From: Nitrosopumilaceae archaeon
GTDB lineage: Archaea > Thermoproteota > Nitrososphaeria > Nitrososphaerales > Nitrosopumilaceae
Reading direction: 5' to 3'
Assembly: GCA_030041535.1 (NCBI GenBank)
Contig: JASHNR010000019.1
Coordinates: 1-59,419, forward strand
DNA: 59,419 bases
Position numbers and translations under genes: made by a program. Shown here in pieces: positions 49,285-55,126 of this stretch. The stretch's first letter is position 1; each line of letters opens with the position of its first letter. The notes below the pieces were generated by a model. It saw nothing but the letters and a program-made list of their open reading frames with translations, searched no databases and was not told the DNA's origin.

Positions 49285-49602
49285 TCATGGAGTCTTTCCC
49301 TTGAATTGGAAAAATACTTCTTTTCTTGTTCCTTCCTGATCCCACGCCGCAACTTTGTATCTGCCAGAAATTTTCCATTGTTTTGTATCAAACTTTAGTA
49401 CAGTAGAATAAGTTCCCTTTTGAGAATTAATGTACTGATCTGCACTAAAAACTTCCTTCTCTGACGGATCTAAAACTGTCACATGGACTGTCTGTTTAGG
49501 ATTAAGTGTCTCGTAATCTACTTTTAATTTCATATATTCACCTTCATTGTAGATCGGTTTGTCTATATTTAACGTAATTTTATTAGTCGTGATTTGAATC
49601 AT
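49285..49602 (-). CDS. Small beta-sandwich hypothetical protein
   Basis: A 105-residue protein with no signal peptide. It reads like one Ig/MG2-type beta-sandwich: KITLNIDKPIYNEGEYMKLK, VHVTVLDPSEKEVF, then YSTVLKFDTKQWKISGRYKV and AAWDQEGTRKEVFF. MG2 domains occur in macroglobulins and S-layer-associated proteins, but this one is isolated and apparently cytoplasmic. Function unknown. Confidence 0.65.
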   Translation of the reverse strand: MIQITTNKITLNIDKPIYNEGEYMKLKVDYETLNPKQTVHVTVLDPSEKEVFSADQYINSQKGTYSTVLKFDTKQWKISGRYKVAAWDQEGTRKEVFFQFKGKTP

Positions 49603-52440: not shown

Positions 52441-53853
52441 CTAATAAAGAAAACTTAGTAATTTGATCTGTTGTTCTGTAGTGATAAGATTCTTGGAAGA
52501 TAATATTTCAAGAAGTTGAGTGATTAATTGTTTTTGTTGTTCTGAAAATCCCGGCTGGCCGGGCGGGCCTGGAGGACCTGGAGGGCCGCGTGGACCTACA
52601 TCTCCCATCGTACCTTGTGGGCCTTGTGGACCTTTATCGCCAGACATGCCGGGGGGACCAGTAACTCCTTTATCACCTTGTGGACCTTGAACTCCTTGCG
52701 GGCCTTTATCTCCAGATTGACCTTGTGGACCCAGAGGTCCCTTATCACCTTGAGGACCTTGAATGCCTTGCGGGCCTGGTGGACCCTGTGGGCCTGGCGG
52801 TCCCCTTGGACCTTGTTCACCAGGCGAACCCGGTAAACCTCTAGGTCCTTTTTCACCTTGAGGGCCTGGAATACCTGTCAGACCTTTATCTCCAGGAGGA
52901 CCTTGTGGGCCTTGCGGACCTTTATCTCCAAGTGGACCTTGTGGTCCTGTAAGGCCTTTATCGCCAAGTGGACCTTGCGGGCCCAGCGGACCTTTATCTC
53001 CAAGTGGACCAGAAGGACCTTTTGGTCCTTTATCACCGGGTGGACCAAGAATTCCTTTATCTCCCAGTGGCCCTGGAGGACCTGTTGCACCCTTATCGCC
53101 TATAGGACCTGATTCTCCTGTAAGGCCTTTTTCTCCCTTGTCACCCTTATCTCCCTTATCTCCCTTGTCACCAATTTCTCCCTTGTCTCCTCTTGGACCT
53201 TTATCACCAGATGGACCTTTGTCTCCTGTTATGCCTTTATCGCCAATTGGACCTTTGTCTCCCTTATCGCCTTTATCTCCAGGAGGACCTTGTGGGCCTT
53301 TATCTCCAGGAGGACCTTGTGGGCCTGGAGATCCCTTGTCACCTTGAGAACCCGGAATTCCTTGTTGTCCCGGTGGACCCTGAGGACCTGGCGGTCCTGA
53401 TGGGCCCTGAACTCCCGGTTGACCTTGTGGACCACGCATGCCCTGAGTACCGGACGCAGGATAATAATATTCTGGAGACGGTTTGTGACCCTTTGACGAT
53501 GGTTCATCCCTAGGACTAGGAGTTGTAAGAATTTCACCTGGAATCTTTGGCACACTAACTTGAAAAGCAGAATTAATTGAGGAAAACTGATCAAGAATTA
53601 TGACCCAAACCGAGTCTCTTGTAAACACAAAATCAGGAATGGGGTTTTTTGAAGAGCCCAGAGTCTGAGCGAATTTTGCGTCTTTTACCCTTAGGTGGAA
53701 ATTATCTTTCCAGATAACCGGAAAGTTCCTTCGTTTTATGTCTTCTTGAGAAGGCGGGTAATCACAAATAGAAATTTGCACCTCAAAGACGCCCGATGAG
53801 AGCTTAAATGGCGATTCGCCAGTTATTTCTATTATCCTTTCTCTGGCTGACAT
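52441..53853 (-). CDS. Collagen-like protein with 100 Gly-X-Y triplets
   Basis: A 470-residue protein in three parts. Residues 1-137 are a beta-rich domain with no family I recognise, ending in a Pro/Ser linker ([16 protein letters not shown]). Residues 138-437 are 100 uninterrupted Gly-X-Y triplets by my count, 24 of them GDK, the rest mostly GPP, GPQ, GPL and GPx. Residues 438-470 ([19 protein letters not shown]) are a helical tail that could trimerise. There is no signal peptide, membrane segment or cysteine pair to explain surface display. K-G-D neighbours can form inter-chain salt bridges that stabilise a triple helix without hydroxyproline. Function is unknown. Confidence 0.93.
52543..53442 (-). 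repeat. Coding repeat: collagen Gly-X-Y array
   Basis: A 900-base array of 9-base units, GC-rich against the AT-rich surroundings. On the plus strand it creates spurious open frames rich in Leu/Pro/Ser. Blocks such as [10 protein letters not shown] recur several times, suggesting growth by internal duplication or slippage. Confidence 0.9.
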
Positions 53854-53980
53854 ATCCTAGGTGTAATACCTGAGTATTTTTGTATTTATCCAAGCGTTAT
53901 AAAGCTGCTTTGCCAATAAAATTTACTTTTTGGACATCCGGAATAGTATTTATCTACGGAAAATCCATATTTGACCAGTC

Positions 53981-55126
53981 GTGAAAAAATTATTCAAGGG
54001 CGGTTCAGAGTCACCTGAAAGCACTAGAGAGATAAAACCTGAAACGTCAGTAGAGATATCCAAGGAATCAAAGATAACAGATCCTAACTATACTAGAGAT
54101 AAACTGTACAAGAAAGGAATTTCTTGTATGGCCGATGAAAAAATGGAAGAGGCAGTACGAGCCTTTGAAGGAGCAATACAGATTGATCCAGGACATGTGG
54201 ATTCCCTTCTGAAGTTAGGCTATGCCCGATTTCATATGGGCGACTTGGCTGGATCCATGGGAGATTACAATAAGGTTCACGAGATCGATGTTACAAATTC
54301 AGACGCTTGGAACCTAAAAGGTCTCATCTACTATAGACAAAAAAATTATGAAAAAGCTCTTGAATGTGTAGAAAAGTCAATTGATACCAATCCCACTGAC
54401 GGTATGTCTTGGTACAACAAGGCATGCTATTATTCTCTTTTGAATCATGTTCCTGAGGGCATTGAGGCTTTGAAGCGTTCAATCGAAATAGATGTTAAAA
54501 ATGCAAAGAAGGCGGTAAGGGACAAAGACTTTGAGAACATAAGAGCAGATGACGGATATAGAAGAATTGTCGAGGTTGTAGTATTAGAATCAGTAAGACA
54601 GGGATATCACAAGGTGGGCCAGATAGTTTGGACAACCATGCTAGGCAAGACAGAGGTAGAAGACGCAGCAAGAAAATTAGTGGAAAAAGGTCTATTGATA
54701 AAAGAAGAAAGAAATGCTGGCCTGTCTAAGACAGAAGAGTTTGAGATTGCCCCTGAGTTGGCTGCTAAGATAGGTGTTGAAAAGAAAGGTCTCTTTGGAA
54801 CAACAAAAAAGATCAATCCACTATTAATTCAACACCTAAAAGAAATTAGCGAGGCAGTTCAAGCTGTCAAGTCTGCAATAGAGAAAGGAGATGTTAACGA
54901 CGTCATTGCAAAGATGGACGTATTCATTGATCCTAGTAAAAGAGGCGCACAGATGATAGAGCACTTTTTTGAAGAACATCGAGATATCAGATTATTCAAG
55001 ATTAGATTAACTGACAAAGGTTATGAATACTTGCAGGCAAATAAACAGAAAATGATAGATCTCTTTGACCACATTGAGAGTCAGACTACAAAGAAGCTAA
55101 GAAGCGAGACTACACAAAATACTTAG
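53981..55126 (+). CDS. TPR protein with C-terminal winged-helix-like domain
   Basis: A 381-residue protein, GTG start. Residues 40-190 hold about four TPR units: GISCMADEKMEEAVRAFEGA, LKLGYARFHMGDLAGSMGDY, LKGLIYYRQKNYEKALECVE and a closing repeat with YNKACYYSLLNHVPEGIEAL. The remainder has HKVGQIVWTTMLGKTEVEDAA, which looks like a winged helix, then helical segments with RLTDKGYEYL near the end, another winged-helix-like turn. It could connect a protein partner to nucleic acid. It diverges from the collagen-like gene over 127 bases. Confidence 0.8.
   Translation: MKKLFKGGSESPESTREIKPETSVEISKESKITDPNYTRDKLYKKGISCMADEKMEEAVRAFEGAIQIDPGHVDSLLKLGYARFHMGDLAGSMGDYNKVHEIDVTNSDAWNLKGLIYYRQKNYEKALECVEKSIDTNPTDGMSWYNKACYYSLLNHVPEGIEALKRSIEIDVKNAKKAVRDKDFENIRADDGYRRIVEVVVLESVRQGYHKVGQIVWTTMLGKTEVEDAARKLVEKGLLIKEERNAGLSKTEEFEIAPELAAKIGVEKKGLFGTTKKINPLLIQHLKEISEAVQAVKSAIEKGDVNDVIAKMDVFIDPSKRGAQMIEHFFEEHRDIRLFKIRLTDKGYEYLQANKQKMIDLFDHIESQTTKKLRSETTQNT

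Follow-up and report, generated by a model that had tools for sequence, protein, structure and literature searches.

The window, by which we mean the whole stretch of 59,419 nucleotides analysed here, carries a gene for a long collagen-like protein whose uninterrupted Gly-X-Y tract is evidently under strong, length-specific selection and whose N-terminal domain is found in most Nitrosopumilaceae genomes. We read this protein as a homotrimeric collagen rod, nucleated at its C-terminus, that would serve as a scaffold or spacer of fixed length, most likely in the cytoplasm, and would be lineage-defining in Nitrosopumilaceae; we put the chances that this whole reading is right at about even. Collagen is usually regarded as an extracellular protein, of animals or of pathogen surfaces, and Nitrosopumilaceae are a globally abundant ammonia-oxidising archaeal family; here, then, a collagen-like gene is a core gene of an archaeal family that ranks among the most abundant. 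Our literature search found neither a published description of this collagen-like family of Nitrosopumilaceae nor protein-level evidence for it.

The features discussed below are collected in Table 1. Read from its ATG (53853..52441, minus strand), the open reading frame gives a product of 470 residues with a single Pfam match, Collagen, at 169.6 bits against a cut-off of 27.2. A sequence-only reading of the window had proposed a long collagen-like protein in an ammonia-oxidising archaeon and had suggested this Pfam search. The first part of the proposal is upheld by the reading frame, the Gly-X-Y tract and the match to PF01391 (E=1.2e-50). The second is upheld by the source genome (1.83 Mb in 66 contigs, 99.9% complete), which holds two archaeal amoA genes (G000:C8:1292-1840 and G000:C12:7996-8544), and the source organism is therefore an ammonia oxidiser. 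Named relatives put it among Ca. Nitrosotalea-like soil archaea, and the most similar N-domain segment among the loci listed, at 93%, is that of Ca. Nitrosotalea sp. TS (L142). Scanning the whole window for Rfam families and tRNAs gave no match.

Table 1. Positions of the collagen-like gene, its parts and its divergent neighbour in the window
Feature	Position	Strand	Basis
Collagen-like protein CDS, 470 aa	52441..53853	-	ORF; PF01391, E=1.2e-50; orthologs family-wide
N-terminal beta-strand-rich domain, family-specific, residues 1-106	53536..53853	-	AlphaFold2 prediction
Variable linker, residues 107-134	53452..53535	-	alignment; length differs among close relatives
Uninterrupted Gly-X-Y tract, 101 triplets, residues 135-437	52543..53451	-	register reading; comparison with relatives
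C-terminal tract end with RGPPGxPG core, probable triple-helix nucleation site	52543..52596	-	near-invariant in family
Conserved helical hairpin, 33 residues (438-470), probable trimerisation cap	52444..52542	-	family-wide profile; model
Divergent intergenic region, 127 bp, between collagen and TPR genes	53854..53980	.	
TPR-repeat protein, divergent neighbour	53981..55126	+	also in ammonia-oxidising families without the collagen gene

The Gly-X-Y register is unbroken over residues 138-437, which makes the 100 consecutive triplets that the sequence-only reading had counted; the preceding triplet, G135-T-Q, is also in register, so that the tract has 101 triplets (or 100 when counted from GMR at residue 138), with 134 (or 137) residues on its N-terminal side and 33 on its C-terminal side. 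GDK accounts for 24 of the triplets, the quarter noted earlier, and 46% of X positions are proline. How closely this pattern is held can be judged from the relatives. The clade of the window's own protein (support 100/99) comprises 11 genomes, each with exactly 101 triplets; the 12 genomes of the next clade are split evenly between 123 and 124. Within the 101-triplet clade about 63% of the wobble positions of glycine codons differ on average, as do 13% of amino acids; the corresponding values in the 123/124 clade are 37-39% and 8%. Both clades show zero differences at the first or second base of these codons and zero glycine substitutions, and the relatives largely agree in the positions of their GDK triplets. 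Because 11 close relatives keep all 101 glycines while about 63% of the glycine wobble sites differ, the tract is not a product of chance, and the purifying selection that this comparison points to is consistent with a triple helix. Family-wide, the tract ranges from 68 to 185 triplets (most have 84-124), with near-constant length only within clades, and its net charge is near neutral in the orthologs (-8 to +10). At 0.286 nm per residue the rod would measure 72-106 nm in most members and about 87 nm for 101 triplets.

Complete ortholog tracts are unbroken except in assemblies showing frame breaks or Ns. Among the copies affected, the collagen gene of Ca. Nitrosotalea sp. TS (L085, G017) is interrupted by an early TGA, that of L117 (G042) is split across frames, and those of L109 and L114 (G040, G061), in a genus with 0.8-Mb genomes, are short and contain Ns or meet the end of a contig. 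These disrupted or shrunken copies could reflect either decay or sequencing error.

One earlier suggestion about the tract fails. The sequence-only reading had proposed that recurring Lys-Gly-Asp pairs stabilise the helix, and KGD and KGE pairs do have a stabilising effect in peptides (PMC7824840); however, the window protein has only five KGD and two KGE, and its Lys/Arg-Gly-Asp/Glu junctions number 8, fewer than the mean of 9.3 in triplet shuffles. Such junctions are enriched in 0 of 50 orthologs (mean 8.8 vs 11.3 shuffled). All 50 are instead enriched in acidic-basic pairs that lie within one triplet (29.5 vs 11.5 shuffled). Since the axial pairs are not enriched, stability would rest largely on proline and the end caps, or else the charge pattern may serve lateral packing. 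The source genome gave no match to the prolyl hydroxylase-type family 2OG-FeII_Oxy_3.

Conservation of the protein is highest at the C-terminal end, in its last 51 residues. Every complete C-terminus has RGPPGxPG followed by a conserved two-helix hairpin, the segment after RGPPGxPG measuring 33-37 residues across the family and ending in -LY in nearly all members. AlphaFold2 places helices at positions 19-34 and 40-50 of the last 51 residues (pLDDT 91), so of the 33-residue helical tail described earlier the length and the helicity stand, but the tail is predicted to be a two-helix hairpin and not one helix. Searches of the tail against Pfam, PDB sequences and PDB folds returned nothing significant. 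We also considered a SHOCT-like domain and rejected it: the two-helix layout is similar, but six tails gave no SHOCT match at E up to 10. The combination of imino-rich triplets with a small helical domain looks like a nucleation and trimerisation cap, by analogy with a prophage collagen-like protein in which the C-terminal domain and a coiled coil have been shown to be trimerisation modules (PMC3368898).

At the other end, the AlphaFold2 model of the N-domain is compact and strand-rich (pLDDT 89.4, pTM 0.80, alignment of 47 rows). The domain had been described from the letters as belonging to no recognised family, and this agrees with Pfam, which has no match to the N-terminal region at curated cut-offs and only a sub-threshold one to DUF6657 (E 0.005-0.05). 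A PDB sequence search with the N-domain gave no significant match, and a PDB fold search gave nothing better than E=0.17. The whole N-terminal region has 131-135 residues in genomes of the 101-triplet clade and is longer, at 137-142, in those of the 123/124 clade. We therefore regard the protein as a collagen-like variant with apparently new end domains, of which only the repeat belongs to the known PF01391 kind.

How widely is this architecture shared? A first search found the N-domain in 65 of 121 relatives. With a profile, it was found in 164 of 180 Nitrosopumilaceae genomes of at least 80% completeness and in none of 120 genomes from the other families of the order, which answers the earlier suggestion to look for the domain in archaeal genomes; a class-level search likewise returned matches in Nitrosopumilaceae only. 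Some of the absences are contig breaks: G001, for example, lacks the N-domain, yet has a tract of 124 triplets that ends in the C-terminus typical of the family. The gene is single-copy in all but two of the matching genomes and is kept even in a streamlined genome of 1.23 Mb (G054).

The locus is similarly steady. The collagen gene stands head-to-head with a gene for a TPR protein in 58 of 60 loci; the opposite flank is usually a DRG-type GTPase gene, with rhodanese and sulfite/nitrite reductase-like genes beyond. In the intergenic region, the motif AAATACAAAAATACT (53873-53887, on the strand of the collagen gene and upstream of it) recurs in most of 18 aligned family members, and a related motif, ATAAATACT, faces the TPR gene. 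Of the families tested, only four (f1, f2, f3 and f8) gave matches to the TPR protein itself. Since these include families that lack the collagen gene, the latter probably arrived or arose beside the TPR gene at the base of Nitrosopumilaceae. For the same reason, namely that the TPR gene occurs without the collagen gene in other ammonia-oxidising families, we do not rely on this neighbour for a function. By eye, the TPR protein has a possible winged-helix region. Also nearby is an MG2-like ORF of 105 residues (window 49285-49602), present in just 6 of 60 syntenic loci; lying beside conserved genes, it would be a recent gain or a gene that is frequently lost.

Drawing these observations together, we propose the following mechanism. 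The C-terminal helical hairpins would bring three identical chains together, and the adjacent GPPGPPG would then nucleate a triple helix that zips toward the N-terminus, with the number of triplets setting the length of the rod, about 87 nm for 101 triplets. Three N-terminal beta-domains on flexible linkers would crown the rod, which would be built in the cytoplasm and stay there; the N-heads may bind a partner, leaving the rod as a fixed-length scaffold or spacer. In this scheme the folds of both end domains are predicted, and the AlphaFold2 models are of single chains, which cannot show a trimer; the trimer, the triple helix, the nucleation site, the cytoplasmic residence and the spacer role are what we infer.

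The step most open to dispute is the location, and here the main rival is export by an unrecognised route, with the protein standing in the S-layer, or reaching beyond it, as a collagen-like stalk whose N-heads are anchored or adhesive and which stabilises the envelope or attaches the cell. None of the orthologs examined has a signal peptide, a membrane helix or anchor, LPXTG or an N-terminus that is hydrophobic, which extends to the family what had been said of the signal peptide in this protein. The highest 19-residue Kyte-Doolittle window reaches 1.54 among 50 orthologs and 1.02 in the window protein, the top-scoring windows of the orthologs fall inside the folded domain, and the C-terminus of the window protein has neither LPXTG nor a hydrophobic segment. 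In contrast, most of the other collagen-like proteins that we found in related families of the order do begin with a signal or membrane segment. With no export signal, assembly and most likely also residence would be cytoplasmic, and the majority of the neighbouring genes, too, code for cytosolic proteins. On the other hand, protein export in archaea may do without any signal that can be recognised, and most described prokaryotic collagen-like proteins act at surfaces, as is generally known (see also PMC8968730). A collagen-like 'adhesin' that is up in low salinity in Nitrosotenuis chungbukensis was taken as a surface protein (PMC13037477), although it need not be of the same family, and the best PDB fold match of the N-domain is the ligand-binding region of the SgrA adhesin (E 0.17, TM 0.50), a weak resemblance that is not significant. 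Weighing these points, we consider a surface role somewhat unlikely.

A second rival is descent from a virus. Prophage side-tail fibres are likewise signal-less collagens with end caps (PMC3368898), and the family's ancestor could have captured such a fibre next to the TPR gene and domesticated it, possibly as a device for defence, killing or attachment. In a viral structure library the N-domain best matches an uncharacterised protein of a siphovirus (E 2.5e-3), but the TM of 0.43 lies below the reliable range, no relatives of the N-domain were found in IMG/VR viral contigs or phage records, and the locus is ordinary, syntenic and devoid of viral genes; we think this origin improbable. Still less probable, in our judgement, is that the tract forms no triple helix in vivo and is a low-complexity polar chain, such as a disordered tether or a condensate-forming region. 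The many GDK triplets and the failure to find hydroxyproline machinery in the genome would fit such a chain, but a disordered tether does not require every triplet to keep its glycine without a single substitution, or a near-invariant GPPGPPG at its end. Finally, the sequence is repetitive and a few relatives have frame breaks, as expected of neutral repeat expansion or an assembly artefact; this the comparative data refute, since equal lengths and triplet patterns recur in independent genomes, single-contig ones included, and the glycine positions are frozen amid extensive synonymous change, and we give it practically no weight.

A bolder form of the cytoplasmic rod would be an intracellular collagen cytoskeleton or molecular ruler, with lineage-set rods of about 70-110 nm organising cell shape, division or a large complex. 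Nitrosopumilaceae cells are only 0.2-0.3 µm wide and mostly thin rods; Nitrososphaeraceae are coccoid, and they lack the collagen gene. We hold this form to be unlikely.

Several known systems share parts of this layout. To the proteins of PF01391 the likeness lies in the uninterrupted, proline-rich Gly-X-Y repeat, and the difference in the two end domains, both of which fall outside Pfam at curated cut-offs. The BclA-type collagen of the Bacillus exosporium has an N-terminal part, a rod and a C-terminal trimeriser, and is assembled from the cytoplasm of the cell that produces it, with no classical signal. It thus shares with the archaeal protein both the layout and the lack of a classical signal, but here there is no spore, and the C-cap is a 33-residue helical hairpin, not a TNF-like beta domain. 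The EHEC prophage tail fibres EPclA-D also do without hydroxylation and hold their rod between an N-terminal domain and a trimerisation domain at the C-terminus (PMC3368898), trimerisation being presumed in our case. Unlike them, the archaeal gene is a cellular core gene without PfN, PfC or Pf2 and without prophage context, and Pfam finds no phage-fibre end domain in the window protein. Secreted bacterial collagen-like adhesins, Scl-type and others, likewise carry a non-collagenous head on a long hydroxyproline-free Gly-X-Y stalk (PMC8968730); the archaeal protein differs in having no signal peptide or wall anchor and a tract length that is near-fixed within clades.

A rod that stays in the cytoplasm would, unusually, make collagen a structural element of the cell interior; an exported one would point to a way out of the cell that has gone unrecognised. 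In both cases the gene provides a marker of Nitrosopumilaceae cell architecture that can be put to the test, and supplies putative hydroxyproline-free triple helices together with a compact, 33-residue candidate trimerisation tag.

Two further groups of proteins with Gly-X-Y triplets were seen. Five (L190, L199, L205, L212 and L213; G075 and G101, family f4) combine 17-30 such triplets with a membrane segment at the N-terminus and with CxxCH-rich regions like those of multihaem cytochromes, and are possibly cytochromes on collagen-like stalks. Three others (L194, L195 and L196; G107, G024 and G025) combine an N-terminal membrane segment and 8-13 triplets with an HtrA/PDZ-like C-terminus.
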